This document shows positions 3,235 through 22,467 of a stretch of 64,000 nt of DNA, piece by piece; the first letter of the stretch is position 1, and the number at the start of each line of letters is the position of its first letter. The stretch is from a virus. The stretch spans positions 1 through 64,000 of IMG/VR virus record IMGVR_UViG_3300032268_000973. The stretch is one strand, 5' to 3'. Under the pieces are notes generated by a model. It did no database searches, was not told the origin of the DNA, and saw only the letters and a program-made list of their open reading frames with translations. The position numbers were made by a program, and so were the translations under genes.

Positions 3235-3897
3235 ATGGCATGTAGTAAATATACACTCACGAACACAGGTTCAACAATAGTTAACTTCAGTTACAGAAGA
3301 TGTGATGATTCACTTTGGGATTATCAAGTTGAGCTATTACAAAACCAAACTAAAAATATTTGGGTTATCGATGGCACCTATACTGTGGCACCATCTTTCA
3401 AAAACTCAATTTCTTTGGTTGATCAAGGAGCGTTTCCTCCTATTTCTGCGACAAATACACCAACACCTTCTAATACACAAACTCCGAGTCCAACAATTAC
3501 TCCAACTGAAACTCCAACTAATACTCCAACTCCAAGTGTTACAAAAACTCAAACACCAACACAAACAACTAGTGCAACTCCTACCGCAACATCTACAGAA
3601 ACACCAACTAATACCCCAACGCCAACTTCTACAGCAACTCAAACTCCAACTAACACCACAACTCCAACTAACACCACAACTCCAACTAATACCCCAACAC
3701 AAACAAACACAGGAACTCCAGCAGTCACTGCAACTCCGACAGCAACCGCAACTCCAACAAATACCCCATCACAAACAAACACAGGAACTCCAGCAATCAC
3801 CGCGACTCCGACTGCAACCGCAACTCCGACAGCAACCGCAACTCCAACAAATACCGCAACTTCGACGTTGACACCAACACCGACAACGACTTCTTAA
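3235..3897 (+). CDS. Virion-type protein with long Pro/Thr repeat tail
   Basis: 220 aa. Residues 1-73 form a small beta domain ([19 protein letters not shown], then a segment with W-D-Y-Q-V-E-L-L) that could anchor the protein. Residues 75-220 are almost only Thr, Pro, Asn, Ser and Ala in T-P-x-x-T-P repeats, predicted to be extended and unfolded. The DNA of this part holds a 72-base tandem duplication (copies start at 3698 and 3770). Such tails serve as flexible stalks or decoys on surfaces. A terminator follows directly. Function unknown; I infer a surface-exposed virion protein. Confidence 0.65.
3457..3894 (+). repeat. Low-complexity Pro/Thr-coding repeat with a 72-bp tandem copy
   Basis: Short ACTCCAAC-type units repeat throughout. 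A longer imperfect unit beginning CACAAACAAACACAGG starts at 3698 and again at 3770 (period 72), with a few third-position differences between copies. Consistent with slippage-driven length variation. Confidence 0.8.
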
Positions 3898-3920
3898 AAT
3901 TAAAAAAAAATTATATATCC

Positions 3921-3950
3921 AAAACCCTCCACTTTGTCGGAGGGTTTTTT
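3921..3950 (+). terminator. Intrinsic terminator
   Basis: Perfect 10-bp stem AAAACCCTCC (3921-3930) / GGAGGGTTTT (3939-3948), 8-base loop, then a T run to 3950. Separates the fibre region from the glycosyltransferase cluster. Confidence 0.9.
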
Positions 3951-3974
3951 ATTTTATGGTAAAAATATATACTA

Positions 3975-5237
3975 ATGAAAATATTCGTTCAAATAGCATC
4001 TTACCGAGATCCTCAATTAGTTCCAACATTGAAGGACATGATTGCAAACGCCAAGAAACCTAAAAATTTAGTTTTTTCAATTGCAAGACAATTTAGTGAA
4101 ACCGATGGTTTTGACAACTTAGATGAGTTTAGAAAAGACAAAAGGTTCAAAATTTTGGACATTCCTTACCAAGAATCCAAAGGTGTTTGTTGGGCAAGAA
4201 ATATGACTCAACAACTTTATGATGGTGAAGAGTATACATTACAAATCGACTCTCATATGAGATTTGTAAAAGATTGGGATGATATTTTAATCAAAATGAT
4301 AAAAGGATTACAAAAAGATGGATATAAAAAACCATTATTGACAGGTTATGTTCCATCGTTTGATCCTGAAAACGATCCCGCTGGAAGATCACAAGACGCT
4401 TGGAGAATGGCGTTTGATAGGTTTATCCCTGAAGGTGCGGTGTTTTTCTTACCTGAAACAATTCCAGGTTGGAGAGAAATGACAAAACCCGTAACCTCAA
4501 GATTCTATTCCGCTCACTTCTGTTTTACGTTAGGTCAATTCTCAACTGAAGTACAACACAACCCCGAATACTATTTCCACGGAGAAGAAATCTCTATTGC
4601 CGCAAGAGCATATACTTGGGGATATGATTTGTTCCACCCACACATTCCTGTTATATATCACGAATACACTCGAAAGGGAAGAACAAAACAGTGGGATGAT
4701 GACAAGACTTGGGGAGAAAAAAATAAACATTCTCACCACACCAATAGAAAATTATTCGGTATGGACGGTGAAACCCAAGAGGGCCATGATGGTCCATTTG
4801 GGTTTGGTACTATAAGAACTTTACGAGAATATGAAAGATATGCTGGATTATTATTTGAAAAAAGAGCGGTGGACCAACATTGTTTAGATAAAAAATACGC
4901 ACCAAGTCCTGTGATCGAAGATGAAGAGGAATGGAAGAAAAGTTTCTCAACAATTTACAAGCATTGTATTGATGTTGGATATTCAAGTGTTCCTGAAACT
5001 GACTATGATTTTTGGGTTGTTGCATTCCACGGTCCAAATGATGAAACAATCTATAGAAGAGATGCTGACAAAAATGAAATTGCTGGGTTTATGCGAGACC
5101 CTGACAAATATTGTAAAGTTTGGAGAGAATTCCCAACTACAGTATTACCAAGTTATTGGGTAGTATGGCCTCACTCAGAGTCAAAAGGATGGTGTGATAG
5201 ATTAACAGGTCAATTAAATCACAATCACGTAAGTTAA
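3975..5237 (+). CDS. GlcNAc-type glycosyltransferase
   Basis: 420 aa. It opens with IFVQIASYRDPQLVPTLKDM, the typical first strand and loop of the GlcNAc-transferase family (PF11397-type, GT-A fold). A metal-binding D-x-H lies in the segment QIDSHMRF at about residues 93-100, preceded by GVCWARN. The middle has YFHGEEISIAARAYTWGYD, matching the acceptor/catalytic region of this family. No membrane segment, so a soluble cytoplasmic enzyme. It is the first gene of a four-gene overlapping run after a terminator. Likely glycosylates a phage or host surface component, or modified DNA bases; the substrate cannot be read from sequence. Confidence 0.85.
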   Translation: MKIFVQIASYRDPQLVPTLKDMIANAKKPKNLVFSIARQFSETDGFDNLDEFRKDKRFKILDIPYQESKGVCWARNMTQQLYDGEEYTLQIDSHMRFVKDWDDILIKMIKGLQKDGYKKPLLTGYVPSFDPENDPAGRSQDAWRMAFDRFIPEGAVFFLPETIPGWREMTKPVTSRFYSAHFCFTLGQFSTEVQHNPEYYFHGEEISIAARAYTWGYDLFHPHIPVIYHEYTRKGRTKQWDDDKTWGEKNKHSHHTNRKLFGMDGETQEGHDGPFGFGTIRTLREYERYAGLLFEKRAVDQHCLDKKYAPSPVIEDEEEWKKSFSTIYKHCIDVGYSSVPETDYDFWVVAFHGPNDETIYRRDADKNEIAGFMRDPDKYCKVWREFPTTVLPSYWVVWPHSESKGWCDRLTGQLNHNHVS

Positions 5238-12348: not shown

Positions 12349-12684
12349 TTATGATTGTTTGAGACCGTCCGAGGAAAGTATATACCAATTTCCACCAACG
12401 AATCTAAATTCTATACAAGCAAATTTATCGACAACAACTTCATCGTATTCTTCATCTATCAAACCTTTGTCAGGAACTATTGTTAGATTAACCATTGATT
12501 TTACGACTATGTGATCTGTTGTCTGTGAGTCTAAAATCACTACAGAACTCGGAACATTACGAACAATAATACAACTTTCTCCTGTAGTTTTATAAGTTGT
12601 TTCAGATACCACAGAAATTTCAGAAGTTGTGACCACTTCTCCCCTAATAATCCTTTTCGAAGGAATTGATTTAATTATTGCCAT
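12349..12684 (-). CDS. Small hypothetical structural protein
   Basis: 111 aa, all-beta in appearance (GEVVTTSEISVVSETTYKT, then paired Val/Ile strands and C-I-E-F-R-F-V-G-G-N-W-Y-I-L-S-S-D-G). The C-terminal W-Y-I-L-S-S-D-G resembles ends of small decoration or fibre-base proteins. Its stop abuts the bidirectional terminator and its start lies 3 bases after the stop of the 375-aa gene, so it is the last gene of the minus-strand operon. No firm function. Confidence 0.6.
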   Translation of the reverse strand: MAIIKSIPSKRIIRGEVVTTSEISVVSETTYKTTGESCIIVRNVPSSVVILDSQTTDHIVVKSMVNLTIVPDKGLIDEEYDEVVVDKFACIEFRFVGGNWYILSSDGLKQS

Positions 12685-12687
12685 ATA

Positions 12688-13815
12688 TTAGATTACATAA
12701 ATTTGACGAGGCATTGCTCTGAATTTCATTTGTTTATTTAGATTCTCAGCAATTAACGCTTCTCTCTCCATCACTTTCTCAGGTCTCATTCTTGTTAACC
12801 AACCCTCAGCACCAATTAATTCTTCAATTAATTTACTTTTTTCATCTTTAGCTTCAGTTAATAAACTTTGGTAGTCCATAGTGATTTCACTATCTGGAGT
12901 TTTGAGATTTCCACTATACTTTCCTCTTACTCTCGCTAAAGTTTCTTTACAATATGCCGTGAACCATCTTCTCACCCACTGTTGGCCTGGTACATTTAAG
13001 TCCGTCCAAGTTAATTCTTCGATAGGTACATCGGTCGGAAGTTTAATAATATCAGGATTGTTTTTCAAACAATCGGCTCTACTATCTGGCTCAACATCAT
13101 AATACCAATACCATACCGCTTTACCGACATATAGGTTATAATTTGACCAGTTAAACTTACCACCTGGAGTGTTATACAAGTGAATAAGTTTTTTTCCATC
13201 AGGAAGACCTGTAATTCTATATGTTAAGGAACCACCTAAAATTCTGTTAAGGATGTTCGCCTCTTGCATTCTAATCAAGTAATCAAAACCTGACATCATA
13301 AAGTAAGAACCCTGATATCCCATTTGAGCGTATCCTGCTTCACTGGCACCTAATCCAACACCACCCATACCAAATCCTCCAATACCTCCTAAACCAAATG
13401 CACTCCAAGCTTGGTTAGAAAACCATAGTAATTCATTTACTTCTCGTCCTGCAGGGATTTCATAAGTTTGAGTATTTGCACTTAGAATAAAATAATCTTT
13501 TTTCAGAACCCAAGGACCGTCAGTCTGTAGTCCTACGATTTTTGAATAAGCGTAACTAAATTGTTGTTCAAAATCCATAGTTCGAGTTACCAACGCTCTG
13601 GCAACTGATCTTTCGTTCATGTTGAGATTTACTAAGTTAACCCATTGTGAATCAATTAACCATTGAAGAATATACTCTTCATAATCTCCAACTGCTAGTT
13701 CCATCAATGAATCTAACATTTCGTCTTCGAGTTCGACACTTCTCAAAGGAGCTCCGAGTTGGTGTTTTATTCTCGTATAAATTTTACTTCTTTCGGGTTC
13801 GGGTATTACTGCCAT
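12688..13815 (-). CDS. Probable neck/connector-type structural protein
   Basis: 375 aa. The helical N-terminus (PERSKIYTRIKHQLGAPLRS, then D-E-M-L-D-S-L-M-E-L-A-V-G-D-Y) followed by a region with Trp/Tyr and a Gly-rich insert (residues about 143-160, repeated G-G-I/V-G) is similar to virion proteins of marine T4-like phages often annotated as neck or structural. A T4 gp13 role would fit the nearby gp14- and gp15-like genes, but these are on the other strand and I cannot confirm homology. The neighbouring 111-aa gene is probably co-expressed. Confidence 0.5.
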   Translation of the reverse strand: MAVIPEPERSKIYTRIKHQLGAPLRSVELEDEMLDSLMELAVGDYEEYILQWLIDSQWVNLVNLNMNERSVARALVTRTMDFEQQFSYAYSKIVGLQTDGPWVLKKDYFILSANTQTYEIPAGREVNELLWFSNQAWSAFGLGGIGGFGMGGVGLGASEAGYAQMGYQGSYFMMSGFDYLIRMQEANILNRILGGSLTYRITGLPDGKKLIHLYNTPGGKFNWSNYNLYVGKAVWYWYYDVEPDSRADCLKNNPDIIKLPTDVPIEELTWTDLNVPGQQWVRRWFTAYCKETLARVRGKYSGNLKTPDSEITMDYQSLLTEAKDEKSKLIEELIGAEGWLTRMRPEKVMEREALIAENLNKQMKFRAMPRQIYVI

Positions 13816-13833: not shown

Positions 13834-15372
13834 TTAATCTATTTCGTGTAATAATGATGATTCGTCAAAAACGTATTGATTATAAACCTTTGTAGGATTG
13901 TTTTTGAAAATCAAAATTTTATTATTTTTTGTATTGATAAATATCATCCAATCAACACTATACCTTTTTACATTGCCAGTCCCAAACACTGTGATCTTAC
14001 CATCTTGATTATTTATGTGTGTAAATGGTTTGACTTGAGAAGTATATTTTTGAGTTGGTGTGTTAACAACTAAATCAATTCCTTTGTATGCGTCGATTTT
14101 TTGACCGTGACCACCTGATTTTTCTACAGATGATCCTTCCCCAAAATAAGTTTCAATTTTTGATAAAACTTTGTCTTCAGACTTTTGTCCTCTATCCCAA
14201 AGTTTGGTCAAAACCCGAACGATATTTACAAAGTCCTCATTCTCTTTAGTGAATATTTTTGTTTTAAAATAATCTATTGCTTTAACTAATCTTGTAATTT
14301 CCGCTACGGTTCTCTTCTTTGGATTGGAAAAATCAAATATTTTTTCAGGTTTATTTATTGATTCAATTTGTTTGTTAACTGCCTTAGTTAGTAAACATAG
14401 TGTGTTGAAATTTGTATTCAAATTATTCAATACAGATCTTGCTCCTTCGGACTCTATTCCATAAAACCCTGACATTTCTTTTTCAGACCCTTCAACCCAA
14501 AATTGATTGAATACAGTTTTCAAAACTTCGTTTACACCTTCTTGGTAAATTTTTTTGATTTTTGGATTGTTGATCAATTCCCTGTAAACCTGAGTTTCTT
14601 CAGAACTACAAAATTTTGGTTCTGAACCTTCTTTTAATAAGTTATTAAACTTCACGGATTCCAAAAGTTTTGTTTCAGTTTTCATTTCGTAAAGTTTCGA
14701 AACGAAATCCCAATTGACGACTTTCCAAAAATTACCAATATATTCATCTCGTTTGTTTTTGTATTTCAAATAATATGCGTGTTCCCATAGATCCAACCCA
14801 AGAAGTGGAAATCCCCCACCTTCAATGACATTCATAAGTGGGTTGTCTTGATTTGGTGTCGACATAATTTTCAGAGTATTTCTAGCCGTTAATACTAACC
14901 ATACCCAGCCTGATCCAAATCTTTCTTTAGCAACCGTTTCAAATTTTTTCTTGAACGAAGGAAAAGTTCCGAATTCCGATACAACTTTTTTGTAAAGATC
15001 ACCTTTCAATTTCGTTGGTTCAGGGGACAACATATTCCAAAATAATGCGTGGTTAAAAGCACCACCAGCATTATTTCTAATTGTTTTATCAAATCGACTT
15101 ATGGTTTTGATTATTTGTTCTAACTCTAAATCTCCATACTTTTTCTTGGAGAGAGCATCGTTTAATTTATCGACATACCCCTTATAGTGTTTGTTATAAT
15201 GGAAGTCCATTGTTTCGGGGTCAATAAATTGTTTGAGGGCTGAGTAGGAATAAGGTAGTTTTTCTATTCCAATTTTTTTCATTTCTGTGATTAACAACTC
15301 TTTTTCTCTTGTTACTTTTTGTTCTACAATTTGTAATTCGAGTTGTTCAATCTTCTGTTGTATTTTAGTCAT
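13834..15372 (-). CDS. Mn-type superoxide dismutase fused to a PD-(D/E)XK-like domain
   Basis: 512 aa. Residues 36-230 are a full Fe/Mn superoxide dismutase: LPYSYSALKQFIDPETMDFH, then G-G-A-F-N-H, FGSGWVWLV, NQDNPLM and LGLDLWEHAYYLKYKNKR. All four metal ligands are visible (His58, His108, Asp194, His198). Gly in GGAFNH and Gln175 in NQDNPL are the Mn-enzyme signature. Residues 231-400 are a helical region that I do not recognise. Residues about 400-490 show a nuclease-like core: GIDLVV (Asp433), then SQVKPF (Gln446-x-Lys448), then DWMIFIN and KILIFKN, as in PD-(D/E)XK enzymes. The N-terminal 35 residues hold IVEQ and LITE, similar to tags elsewhere in this genome. SOD converts superoxide to peroxide; what the fusion does is unknown. 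Confidence 0.85.
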   Translation of the reverse strand: MTKIQQKIEQLELQIVEQKVTREKELLITEMKKIGIEKLPYSYSALKQFIDPETMDFHYNKHYKGYVDKLNDALSKKKYGDLELEQIIKTISRFDKTIRNNAGGAFNHALFWNMLSPEPTKLKGDLYKKVVSEFGTFPSFKKKFETVAKERFGSGWVWLVLTARNTLKIMSTPNQDNPLMNVIEGGGFPLLGLDLWEHAYYLKYKNKRDEYIGNFWKVVNWDFVSKLYEMKTETKLLESVKFNNLLKEGSEPKFCSSEETQVYRELINNPKIKKIYQEGVNEVLKTVFNQFWVEGSEKEMSGFYGIESEGARSVLNNLNTNFNTLCLLTKAVNKQIESINKPEKIFDFSNPKKRTVAEITRLVKAIDYFKTKIFTKENEDFVNIVRVLTKLWDRGQKSEDKVLSKIETYFGEGSSVEKSGGHGQKIDAYKGIDLVVNTPTQKYTSQVKPFTHINNQDGKITVFGTGNVKRYSVDWMIFINTKNNKILIFKNNPTKVYNQYVFDESSLLHEID

Positions 15373-15410: not shown

Positions 15411-17162
15411 TTATTTTCTGTTTTCGTTTATTCTCTTCAAAATTTCTTCGGCCATATCGGAGGAATTTAGGTTGTCACCCATAACAGTTGCAATTACTTG
15501 TTTTTTGTTGTTTAATATGTCATAAATAACTCCTTCAATTGTGTTTTCAAATATTGGGTAATACACTAAAACATTATTTTTTTGGCCATATCTGTACGCT
15601 CTATCTTCTGCTTGAGCGTGGTCTGATGGTAGGAATGATAGGTCATTCATTATTACCGCCTCACCTGCGGTTAATGTTAATCCCACACCCGCAGCTTTAA
15701 TGTTTCCAACAAAAACTTTTACTTTGTCATTTTCTTGGAAATTATCAACACTTTTTTGTCTTTCAGGTTTTGACATTGACCCATCAACCTTTACTGCAGT
15801 TTTTCCAAAATGTTCACAAATCTTATTGAGTGAATCGGTAAAATTACAGAAGATGATAACTTTCTTATCTTGTTCAATAATATTTTCTGCAAGTTCGATT
15901 GTTTGACTTATTTTTTCATCGGCAATGATTTGTCGTACTTTCGTGAGTTTGGTAAACTGAACGGTAAGTGATTTTGATTCTTCAGGATTTTTATCATACC
16001 AATCGTAATACTCACCCATCACCTCTTCGTATGCCTTCGACTTCAATCTCAAATAAACAGGGGTGATTATTTTTTCAGGTAAATCCAATACGTTTTCTTT
16101 GAGTCTTCGTAAGACAAGACCTGTTGTTCGGTCACGAAGTTCTTCCAAATTAGATGACCCTGTCACGTTCCAAACTTTTCTTCCCCCAACATTGAATTGA
16201 TATCCACTACAATATCTAATAGCGTAAGCCATCCAATTCTTGGCAACGGGTGATTCGATGAGATGTAATAGATTGAAATAATCCATAGGTCTTGATGTCA
16301 TTGGAGTACCAGTCAACAACCATAACCTATCAACATTTTTTGCAATGTCGTTTATTAGTTTTGTTCTTTGGGCCGTAGGATTTTTGATATAGTGAGCTTC
16401 GTCAACGACCACCAAATCAAAATTGGCAGCAATAACTTGCGATTCATCTTTTTTCTTAGTGTCATGAAAGTTTTTGATAATGTCGTAGTTTATGATTACG
16501 AAATCGTGTTCGGTACTAAAAGTTTTTCCTTCAGATATGAATATCGATCTGTCTGAGTAATTTTCTATTTCTCGTTTCCAGTTAATCTTAAGAGTTGCAG
16601 GACAGATAATAAGAATCTTCTTTGCCCCCGTCTCTAACGCCGCAATGATAGTAGAGGTAGTTTTCCCCAAACCCATATCATCGGCAAGAATAAATTTTTT
16701 ATTCTCAACAAGTTTCTGAATTGATTCTTTTTGATGTTGGAGTGGAGGCCTATGTGAATATTTGTCATAATCAATTACAACATCCTTAACTGAATTATCT
16801 TTGATGATTGCCGCTTTGGGTAACCAAAAATCGTGGAATTCTTCGTGTTCGAGTACTTTACCCCAAATGTGAAATGCTTTTTCTGTATCACACAATAATT
16901 TTTCAACCCATACTTTATCGGGGATTACGGTGTACAATTTATCGTCCGCTAACTTCTTTGCGAAGTATGCATCTAATATTACCCACTTTTTAGCAACCTT
17001 AGGTTGAGTGTTATGGTTATTTATAATGTAATCCGATTGGCTTCTTGTTGGATAGAACCTTTTGTTTAATTGAGACTTCCTTTTTAGTTCAAGTAAATAA
17101 TTGTTTCCTCCTTCATAAGATTCCAATAGGGATAATGCTTTTGATTCTAAACTTATATCCAT
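15411..17162 (-). CDS. uvsW: SNF2/UvsW-type DEAH helicase
   Basis: 583 aa. Superfamily 2 helicase with motif I ADDMGLGKTT (residues 160-169), motif II DEAH (254-257), motif III LTGTPM (about 279) and C-terminal motifs including GVGLTLTAG and QAEDRAYRYGQ. The DDMGLGKT and RAYRYGQ forms are those of SNF2/SMARCAL1-like annealing or remodelling enzymes rather than classic T4 UvsW. In phages of this type it likely resolves branched DNA during recombination-dependent replication. First gene of the minus-strand block; its promoter must lie in 17163-17256. Confidence 0.85.
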   Translation of the reverse strand: MDISLESKALSLLESYEGGNNYLLELKRKSQLNKRFYPTRSQSDYIINNHNTQPKVAKKWVILDAYFAKKLADDKLYTVIPDKVWVEKLLCDTEKAFHIWGKVLEHEEFHDFWLPKAAIIKDNSVKDVVIDYDKYSHRPPLQHQKESIQKLVENKKFILADDMGLGKTTSTIIAALETGAKKILIICPATLKINWKREIENYSDRSIFISEGKTFSTEHDFVIINYDIIKNFHDTKKKDESQVIAANFDLVVVDEAHYIKNPTAQRTKLINDIAKNVDRLWLLTGTPMTSRPMDYFNLLHLIESPVAKNWMAYAIRYCSGYQFNVGGRKVWNVTGSSNLEELRDRTTGLVLRRLKENVLDLPEKIITPVYLRLKSKAYEEVMGEYYDWYDKNPEESKSLTVQFTKLTKVRQIIADEKISQTIELAENIIEQDKKVIIFCNFTDSLNKICEHFGKTAVKVDGSMSKPERQKSVDNFQENDKVKVFVGNIKAAGVGLTLTAGEAVIMNDLSFLPSDHAQAEDRAYRYGQKNNVLVYYPIFENTIEGVIYDILNNKKQVIATVMGDNLNSSDMAEEILKRINENRK

Positions 17163-19266: not shown

Positions 19267-22200
19267 ATGGCAACACAAGTAAATCAAAAGGTATATGTAT
19301 CACCTGGAGTATACACGTCAGAAACCGACTTATCATTCGTTGCTCAGAGTGTTGGTGTAACAACATTAGGTTTGGTGGGAGAAACAATTAAAGGTCCCGC
19401 TTTCGAGCCTATTTTTATTACCAATTACGACGAGTTTCAAGCATATTTTGGTGGAACTGAACCAACAAAATTTGTTAACACACAAATTCCTAAGTATGAG
19501 GCGGCTTACATCGCAAAATCATATTTACAACAATCGAATCAACTTTTCGTTACAAGAATTTTGGGTCTTTCAGGATATGACGCAGGACCTTCTTGGAGTA
19601 TCAAAACTATTGCTAATGTTGACCCTTTGACTATTGGATTGAATCCTGCTTCAGCAACTACTTGGACTGCATCATTCACAGGAACTTCAACAGGAAATAC
19701 TGTGACATTTGTTGGTGGTGGATTACCATCACCAGTTTTGGCAAATTTCAACACTCAGTATAGATTATCTGATGGAAGTACTTCAAGTTTAGCTTTGGAC
19801 TTCAATAGTAATCTTGACAATATTATGGATACTCCATCATTGTCAGCAAATACAACAGTGATATATGGAGCAATTCCTGAGTCTAATTTTTATGACTTAA
19901 CAGGAGAATATTCAAATGTGATAAATGAATATGGTTGTGATACTGTCAACTTGGCAACAAATGATTTGAGTTCTGATTTAAACGATCCTTGGTATTATGC
20001 TAATTTTGATATTACTTCAGGAAACGCTTACTCAGGATATTCATTCTTCTATTATGTTTCTAGTTTAACATCAGGAAGTTCTTCAACATTCTCAGGTACC
20101 ATATCAGGTAGTGTTTTCACTTACTCAGGAACAGCGTATTCCGAATACAACAATATGGTTGTGGCGACTTTGAGATCAAGAGGTATATCTTTATATACTA
20201 ATAGCGTTGATAGTGACCAACACGGACCAGTTTATGAAGTTAACGCATTATCTGCTTTGACTTTGAATTGTAGTGGACAATATTCAGGTATTACTCAATC
20301 ACCTTATGAAACTTTCTTAATATCAGGTGTTACTAAAGATAATGACAATTTCTCGTTTGAAACTTCAATGTCCGCAGCATCATCAAAATATATTACTAAA
20401 GTTTTAGGTGTCGATAATTTTGGAAAATCAAGAAATGAGGTTCCTGTGTTTGTTGAGGAAGTGTATCCAAGCACTTTGAATTACGCTTATAACCAAGGTT
20501 ATATTAGAGGTTTGAACTGTGATTTAATTTCTTTACCTGGTGCTAGAAGTCAAGACCCATCTTCAATCGCTTACAATGTAACACAATATAAAGCACCTCA
20601 AACACCTTACTTGGTTTCCGAGTTAAGAGGTAATAAAGTTTATAACTTGTTTAGATTCATTTCAATTTCTGACGGTAACTCAGCAAACACTGAAGTTAAA
20701 GTTTCAATTGCTAACTTGTCTTTCAATAATATGACGTTTGACGTGTTAGTTAGAAACTTTTTTGACACGGACGCTAACCCAGTTGTAATTGAAAAATTCA
20801 CAAACTGTAACATGGATCCTCTTTCTAACAACTTTGTTGCTAAAAAGATTGGATCAAGTGATGGTGAGTACGCATTGATTTCAAGATACATAATGGTTGA
20901 AATGGCTGACGAAGCACCAATAGATGCAATACCTTGTGGATTCTATGGATATACCCAGAGAGAATATTCCTCAGTACTTAACCCTTCACCAGTTCCAATT
21001 TTTAAAACTAAATATTATTTCCCTGGTGAGGTAATCTATAACCCTCCTTTCGGTGCAAGCACAAACACAACAGAATCTGCTGGTGACATCGTAAGAAGAA
21101 GTTATTTAGGTTTCTCAAGTCAATTCGGAGTTGATGATGCGTTCTTACAATATAAAGGAACTCAAAATCCAATCAATTGGGTTGTGTCTCCTCTTCCTGT
21201 TCCTGGTGAACAATGGAATTATTTGAGTAAAGGTTTCCATATGGACTCAGGTGCTACAGTTGTAACTATTTCGAATTCTTTCCAAACTAGTGGTCAGACA
21301 GCATTCGAATGTGGTGTTGCTAACTTCTCATCGGATCCTGAAACTCAAGAAAACCCTTACTATTTCATATACTCAAGAAAATATACTATATGTTTTGCTG
21401 GGGGTTTTGATGGATGGGATATCTACAGAGAACATAGAACAAATCAAGATAGATTCCAATTGGGATCTTCAGGTTTCTTAGCGGGAGCATCCGCGTCACA
21501 AAGATATCCAAATGCAACTGGTGATGGTTTGTTCAAGAGAATCGTTGTTCAGAATAACCTTCAAGATTTTGCTAATACTGACTATTACGCATACTTGTTA
21601 GGTATTCTTACATTCGCAAATCCTGAATCTACAAACATCAACGTATTTGCAACTTCAAGTATAGATTATGTAAATAACTCTAACTTGGTTGAGGAAGCAA
21701 TCGATATGGTTCAGTTCTCAAGAGCGGACTCAGTATACATCGCAACAACACCTGACTATCAAATGTTTACCCCTGACGCTACAAACTCATTGGATATAAT
21801 CTATTCTCAAGAAGCTGTAGACAACTTGGATAACACAGGTATTGATTCTAACTATACTGCGACTTACTATCCTTGGATTTTGACAAGAGATACTGTCAAC
21901 AATACACAAATTTACTTACCACCAACTGGTGAAGTTTGTAGAAACTTAGCGTTGACAGATAACATCGCATTCCCTTGGTTCGCTTCAGCGGGTTACACAA
22001 GAGGTCTTGTGAACTCTATCAAAGCGAGAGTGAAACTCACTCAAGAAGATAGAGATACTTTGTATCAAGGAAGAATCAACCCTATCGCAACATTCGCTGA
22101 TGTGGGAACTGTAATTTGGGGTAACAAAACTTTACAAGTTGCGGACACCGCATTAAACAGATTGAACGTAAGAAGATTGTTACTTCAAGCTAGAAAGTTG

Positions 22201-22467
22201 ATTTCAGCAGTAGCAGTAAGATTGTTGTTCGAGCAAAACGACCAAATCGTTAGACAACAATTCTTGGATAGTGTTAACCCTATCTTAGATTCAATTAGAA
22301 GAGATAGAGGTCTTTATGACTTCAGAGTAACAGTTTCTTCTACCCCTGAAGACTTAGATAGAAATACATTAACAGGTAAGATATACTTAAAACCAACGAA
22401 GGCATTAGAATTCATCGATATTGAATTCTTCATTACTCCAACAGGAGCTTCGTTCGAAAATATCTAA
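19267..22467 (+). CDS. 18: Tail sheath protein (gp18-like)
   Basis: 1066 aa, much longer than T4 gp18 (659). The N-terminus VYVSPGVYTSETDLSFVAQS, then G-L-V-G-E-T-I-K-G-P-A and TNYDEFQAYFGG is the universal sheath start. The C-terminal domain (DRDTLYQGRINPIATFADVG, then R-L-N-V-R-R-L-L-L and the final G-K-I-Y-L-K-P-T-K-A-L-E-F-I-D-I) is likewise typical. The extra length lies in the middle (about 110-700), rich in Ser, Thr, Asn and Tyr, and probably forms protruding surface domains. Polymerises around the tube and contracts on infection. A strong terminator follows. Confidence 0.95.
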   Translation: MATQVNQKVYVSPGVYTSETDLSFVAQSVGVTTLGLVGETIKGPAFEPIFITNYDEFQAYFGGTEPTKFVNTQIPKYEAAYIAKSYLQQSNQLFVTRILGLSGYDAGPSWSIKTIANVDPLTIGLNPASATTWTASFTGTSTGNTVTFVGGGLPSPVLANFNTQYRLSDGSTSSLALDFNSNLDNIMDTPSLSANTTVIYGAIPESNFYDLTGEYSNVINEYGCDTVNLATNDLSSDLNDPWYYANFDITSGNAYSGYSFFYYVSSLTSGSSSTFSGTISGSVFTYSGTAYSEYNNMVVATLRSRGISLYTNSVDSDQHGPVYEVNALSALTLNCSGQYSGITQSPYETFLISGVTKDNDNFSFETSMSAASSKYITKVLGVDNFGKSRNEVPVFVEEVYPSTLNYAYNQGYIRGLNCDLISLPGARSQDPSSIAYNVTQYKAPQTPYLVSELRGNKVYNLFRFISISDGNSANTEVKVSIANLSFNNMTFDVLVRNFFDTDANPVVIEKFTNCNMDPLSNNFVAKKIGSSDGEYALISRYIMVEMADEAPIDAIPCGFYGYTQREYSSVLNPSPVPIFKTKYYFPGEVIYNPPFGASTNTTESAGDIVRRSYLGFSSQFGVDDAFLQYKGTQNPINWVVSPLPVPGEQWNYLSKGFHMDSGATVVTISNSFQTSGQTAFECGVANFSSDPETQENPYYFIYSRKYTICFAGGFDGWDIYREHRTNQDRFQLGSSGFLAGASASQRYPNATGDGLFKRIVVQNNLQDFANTDYYAYLLGILTFANPESTNINVFATSSIDYVNNSNLVEEAIDMVQFSRADSVYIATTPDYQMFTPDATNSLDIIYSQEAVDNLDNTGIDSNYTATYYPWILTRDTVNNTQIYLPPTGEVCRNLALTDNIAFPWFASAGYTRGLVNSIKARVKLTQEDRDTLYQGRINPIATFADVGTVIWGNKTLQVADTALNRLNVRRLLLQARKLISAVAVRLLFEQNDQIVRQQFLDSVNPILDSIRRDRGLYDFRVTVSSTPEDLDRNTLTGKIYLKPTKALEFIDIEFFITPTGASFENI

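Follow-up and report, generated by a model that had tools for sequence, protein, structure and literature searches.

A superoxide dismutase joined to a nuclease-like domain through prohead-protease-like linker sites in a clade of very large T4-like phages

Why would a phage join a superoxide dismutase (SOD) to a nuclease-like domain in a single protein, and do the 2 halves stay together? The question is raised by a gene in IMG/VR virus record IMGVR_UViG_3300032268_000973, of which positions 1 to 64,000, here called the window, were analyzed. The gene is an uninterrupted open reading frame (ORF) of 512 amino acids at positions 13834 to 15372 on the minus strand (coordinates include the stop codon), and the plus-strand reading of this interval is riddled with stops. 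The original prediction described a complete Mn-type SOD and a nuclease-like C-terminal domain in one chain of this length. The fusion has held up, with 129 distinct fused sequences now collected, but the minus strand, a linker with prohead-protease-like sites, the operon context and free-standing nuclease homologs had been overlooked.

An IMG/VR scan with the full protein retained 80 loci, all of which matched over essentially the whole protein, and the homolog set was widened with iterated, increasingly divergent C-terminal profiles to reach the 129 fused sequences. The SOD and the C-terminal half were contained in one frame at 324 of the 325 loci collected, the exception being a huge-phage locus that was fetched for its free-standing nuclease. 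Since homolog searches select for the fusion, an independent sample was drawn in which loci were chosen by the neighboring neck gene. Among the 69 newly fetched loci, 67 contained the fusion, while one contained the SOD alone (L425) and one lacked the gene altogether (L394). The SOD in L425 (positions 3654 to 4902) ends in MKTKTDL-stop, exactly at the linker, from which point a cytidylyltransferase-like ORF takes the place of the nuclease half; this locus has kept the SOD and the helicase, and L394 has kept the helicase and the neck gene. The fusion is under purifying selection, with dN/dS at 0.032 in the SOD and 0.069 in the nuclease half. An assembly error, which the original prediction had named as a concern, is excluded because the 129 distinct sequences come from many IMG/VR contigs, have conserved synteny and show low dN/dS in both halves. 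The architecture, a SOD joined to a C-terminal domain, is thus almost certainly real, and the fusion is a core, near-universal gene of a widespread clade of very large T4-like phages, with relatives of 317 to 326 kb.

The gene belongs to a conserved minus-strand cassette, and almost every locus had one and the same gene order: sheath, SNF2 helicase, fusion, neck, 111-amino-acid protein, DNA polymerase. In the window, the upstream partner is an SNF2-family helicase of 583 amino acids (15411 to 17162, minus strand) and the downstream partner is a neck or head-tail adaptor-like protein of 375 amino acids (12688 to 13815, minus strand), with a PHROG Ad2 match in its C-terminal part. The conserved 111-amino-acid protein (12349 to 12684, minus strand) is encoded by the last gene of the cassette. 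It was also noted that the tail-sheath protein (19267 to 22467) is unusually long at 1066 amino acids, with sheath similarity in the C-terminal part and a large extra region ahead of it.

The protein starts with an extension of 36 residues (15265 to 15372, minus strand), a helix that ends in an invariant (L/I)-x-E30-M31, where M31 may perhaps be the ancestral start of the SOD. Judging by family membership, residues 37 to 230 (14683 to 15264, minus strand) constitute a complete Fe/Mn-type SOD, with matches to PF00081 (residues 37 to 116, E 1e-22, 80.9 bits against a cut-off of 27) and PF02777 (residues 123 to 226, E 3e-38, 130.3 bits against a cut-off of 20.9). The best matches among solved structures in the PDB were Mn superoxide dismutases, with E-values down to 7e-58, and the 4 ligands H58, H108, D194 and H198, along with the gateway residue Y66 and Q175 in the NQDNPL signature, were present in 126 of 126 sequences, bearing out the complete Mn-type SOD of the original prediction. 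Across these sequences, the SOD part was better conserved than the nuclease part. Bacterial MnSODs such as those of Sphingobacterium (6gsc) and Deinococcus (1y67) share the ligands and the NQDNPL and NNAGG-NH signatures, with 45% to 48% identity in structural alignments, but have neither the N-terminal extension nor the 280-residue C-terminal nuclease-fold half. Free-standing phage SODs (for example Vibrio phage 2.275.O, the Pseudomonas PA5oct group and freshwater MW462191) are likewise of the Fe/Mn type, but only 26% to 39% identical to the SOD of the fusion, and the C-terminal half was matched beside a SOD in none of the annotated phage records.

The C-terminal 280 amino acids matched no accepted family by sequence in Pfam, PHROG, PADLOC or the PDB. 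The only matches were below threshold: in 23 of 54 members the motif region matched DUF6602, 2 members matched EcoO109I, and there was a match to MC4. Models of CotH, Lethal factor, poxvirus and other proteins were hit weakly, which was put down to chance. In a full-length AlphaFold model, confidence was low for the SOD part and the fold matches listed were all SODs, and the C-terminal half was therefore modeled alone (279 residues, 54-row homolog alignment), with a pLDDT of 85 and a pTM of 0.78. The first part of the model, residues 251 to 378 (14239 to 14622, minus strand), is predicted to be helical and contains a conserved N316-x-L-N-T-N. The second part, residues 379 to 512 (13837 to 14238, minus strand), has the elements of a PD-(D/E)XK-like core, with a predicted helix at 379 to 410, strands at 415 to 418, 434 to 437 and 442 to 449, and a later strand at 475 to 480; the alpha-beta-beta-beta core is present in the model, and a second core helix is not clearly visible. 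In a Foldseek search against the PDB, the 22 best-ranked structures were all PD-(D/E)XK-type nucleases or restriction-type domains, with probabilities of up to 1.00, the nearest being I-Ssp6803I, archaeal Hjc, the SPARDA nuclease, NhoI and a putative restriction domain. The E-values ranged from 3e-3 to 0.2 and the whole-query TM-scores from 0.22 to 0.28, the latter being low because the matches cover only about half of the query, approximately residues 379 to 512. Given these modest E-values and low scores, we assign the domain to the superfamily and not to a family, but we are confident that the C-terminal half, as modeled, has a PD-(D/E)XK nuclease fold. I-Ssp6803I, Hjc and NhoI share the core fold, and NhoI also the QXK motif, but their sequence similarity to the C-terminal half is undetectable.

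The motif residues agree with this fold, and the outcome that would have overturned the original prediction, a model without a restriction-enzyme fold, did not arise. The residues E399, D427, G431, D433, Q446, K448 and Y471 were identical in 126 of 126 sequences, although the pairwise identity of the C-terminal region averaged 52% and fell to 30%, and the E, D, D, Q and K residues were also kept in a huge-phage homolog of 24% identity (L109). The residues that the original prediction had singled out, D433, Q446 and K448, stand exactly where it placed them and are among the invariant ones. The substitution of Gln for Glu was noted there as compatible either with activity or with binding alone; QXK instead of (D/E)XK is a signature of an Mrr-like subgroup and is catalytic in NhoI/BisI (PMC11347163, PMC11037411), so it is not by itself a sign of binding without cutting. 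Taken together, the invariant residues and the catalytic QXK precedents make an active nuclease likelier than an inactive one. As a separate observation, a 131-amino-acid ORF in the G000 record (172766 to 173161) had a sub-threshold match to the Cfr10I/Bse634I restriction endonucleases (E 6e-5).

Profile searches identified free-standing, single-copy homologs of the nuclease in 2 huge phages, LR756501 (735 kb, E 2e-18) and LR745206 (635 kb, E 3e-8), in neither of which a SOD was detected. Scans with both of these homologs as queries found no close relatives, and the C-terminal half had no relatives among 84,980 prokaryote species in 2 pattern scans. In a viral structure library, 2 near-full-length matches were obtained, one to A0A8D9CCA0, a protein of 1113 amino acids from an uncultured marine phage, and one to A0A6J5L953, a protein of 501 amino acids from an uncultured Caudovirales phage (BFVD/UniProt) that is annotated only as a superoxide dismutase. 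The structural match to the latter spans the whole C-terminal half, and from this, its length and its name it is very probably the same fusion; no paper describing a fusion of this type was found in the literature searched. Being absent from the prokaryote scans and present in huge phages, the domain appears to represent a large-phage nuclease family that has been joined to a SOD in one clade.

The 2 halves are connected by a linker at residues 230 to 250 (14623 to 14685, minus strand; MKTETKLLES..LLKEG), which reads MKTETKLLESVKFNNLLKEGS. It contains 2 sites of the form L/I-x-E. The first, L/I236-x-E238, was present in 126 of 126 sequences and was always followed by S or T, and the second, L/I246-x-E248, was present in 94% of the sequences and followed by A, S, G or T in 87%. 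Where L/I-x-E occurred elsewhere in the protein in more than 30% of the sequences, a small residue came next in at most 16%, and the 2 linker sites were the only such positions mostly followed by A, S, G or T. Both are far better conserved than the surrounding residues. M230 is a conceivable separate internal start, though no ribosome-binding site was evident. With regard to an N-terminal capsid-targeting sequence, the L/I-x-E30 that closes the N-terminal extension has Met as its next residue, and the best leader-like match in the protein is internal. In the SNF2 helicase, an LLE(S/T) motif close to the N-terminus was rejected as a second processing site, as its next residue varies.

The motif of the linker sites, L/I-X-E, is the one behind which T4 gp21 and its relatives cleave, and proteins are directed into T4 heads by short leaders (PMC9026906). 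Capsid-targeting leaders have also brought foreign nucleases into heads (PMC3012670), and in phage P1 an N-terminal signal mediates the packaging of DarB (PMC9024508). An S77 prohead protease (PF03420) and a Gp23-type capsid protein were identified in 4 of the 4 relatives of 317 to 326 kb that were tested, and in the 3 relatives whose N-termini were read the capsid protein has LINE followed by ASS and the protease RILE followed by ASE. Neither capsid genes nor the PF03420 protease were found in the incomplete 183-kb record from which the window was taken, and for this reason we infer the protease of the clade from its relatives.

Leaders such as MKKVLRLTESELVSLVKKMITEA open several other proteins in these genomes. 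The homolog in the 635-kb phage begins MKKFTEYIKESS, while that in the 735-kb phage is without a leader of that kind. The pattern M[KR]..LxE[ST]..[LI]xE[SGAQ] occurred 4 times in approximately 160,000 residues, 3 times at protein N-termini and a fourth time in the linker; this expression was modeled on the leaders and written after the linker had been seen, and should be read as a lead and not as a test. The simple motif L/I/V-x-E was enriched at N-termini in the relative G001, and not clearly so in G000. Several unrelated proteins in the G000 record (133 to 178 kb, L331-L333) and in G001 (L346-L362) were observed to share one N-terminal leader type, M-K-x-x-x-R-L-T-E-S-D-L-x-R-L-V-x-R-V-I-K-E-Q, which may be a head-targeting signal that marks packaged proteins across these jumbo phages. 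From the likeness of the linker to these protein starts, it seems that the nuclease already had a leader of its own when the SOD was added ahead of it.

The explanation that we favor, because the conserved linker sites have the T4-type prohead protease motif, the relatives encode the protease and the linker is leader-like, is that the protein is a head-packaged precursor. A SOD and a nuclease-fold domain, joined by the leader-like linker, would be incorporated in the prohead core, and the T4-type prohead protease would cleave the linker after the L-x-E sites. Once separated, the enzymes would remain with the genome inside the head and pass into the host at infection, where the SOD would clear superoxide near the incoming DNA and the nuclease would act on DNA, perhaps together with the SNF2 helicase. 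We infer that the precursor is packaged, cleaved and delivered and that both halves are active, and likewise the target of the nuclease, and give packaging and cleavage of the precursor a probability of about 0.4. The complete account, a polyprotein that the prohead protease cuts within the head, with the SOD and a DNA nuclease both delivered with the genome, is more tentative still. The L/I-x-E motif is short, and known capsid-targeting leaders are N-terminal while the linker is internal. The T4 internal head proteins (IPI-III, Alt) and P1 DarB are packaged cargo with L/I-x-E sites, as the fusion would be, but in the fusion the processing site lies between 2 enzyme domains, and packaging is here a proposal.

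An uncleaved cytoplasmic enzyme would also suit the position of the gene between the SNF2 helicase and the neck gene, and the main rival explanation is that of an unpackaged DNA-repair or recombination enzyme, in which the nuclease would act with the helicase on branched or damaged phage DNA and the fused SOD would lower superoxide, and hence Fenton damage, at the site of replication. The helicase is located immediately upstream in essentially every locus, the archaeal Hjc resolvase is among the best fold matches, and Endonuclease VII (PF02945) was not found in 3 large relatives, in a search whose control set matched weakly. However, a repair enzyme does not account for linker sites conserved far above the neighboring residues, and the helicase and the nuclease are separable, since L425 keeps the SOD and the helicase without the nuclease and L394 keeps the helicase without the fusion. 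We consider the repair enzyme possible but unlikely.

Less likely than the repair enzyme, and rather improbable, is a head-completion or neck-associated nuclease resembling T4 gp4, a reported nuclease, that has acquired a SOD and trims DNA at packaging or closure. The gene always adjoins the neck/adaptor gene, E..D..ExK residues can be seen by eye in T4 gp4, and searches of the window's own record for T4 gp4 and gp2, run without a positive control, returned nothing; but no sequence search reported similarity to gp4, and the neck gene stays where the fusion gene has been lost (L394). Similarly improbable is a C-terminal domain that binds DNA without cutting and tethers the SOD to it, as might be read from the Q in motif III in place of the usual E/D and from the stronger conservation of the SOD part, because the 5 presumed catalytic residues are invariant at approximately 30% to 50% identity and NhoI/BisI and Mrr-type enzymes are catalytic with a QXK motif (PMC11347163, PMC11037411).

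Other genes in the G000 record were noted by eye. A 123-amino-acid ORF (163827 to 164198; LQWKFLHWQTFGDAKHRTYGSIYDGL) resembles DNA-protecting proteins of the Dps/ferritin kind and could be another oxidative-damage gene of the same phage. Furthermore, a very long block at approximately 71 to 117 kb (L328-L330) contains ORFs with N-termini resembling glycosyltransferases, nucleotide-sugar epimerases and radical-SAM proteins, as well as SGNH-hydrolase-like ORFs and a NodU-type carbamoyltransferase-like ORF, which suggests a large phage glycan-synthesis cluster.

There are precedents for each of the parts, SODs in phages, PD-(D/E)XK nucleases and enzymes packaged by phages, whereas in the literature searched we found no description of the SOD-nuclease pair, its near-universal presence in a clade, the nuclease family or the protease-like linker. 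Phage SODs are usually classed as auxiliary metabolic genes, but in this clade the SOD belongs to a core gene with conserved synteny; its fusion partner is a nuclease family that goes unrecognized by existing databases, and a conserved protease-like site lies between the two. If the protein is packaged, the unexplained leaders in these jumbo phage genomes would be tied to head targeting, and the virus particle would bring its own superoxide defense together with a DNA-cutting enzyme, a paired antioxidant-plus-nuclease toolkit that is injected into the host.
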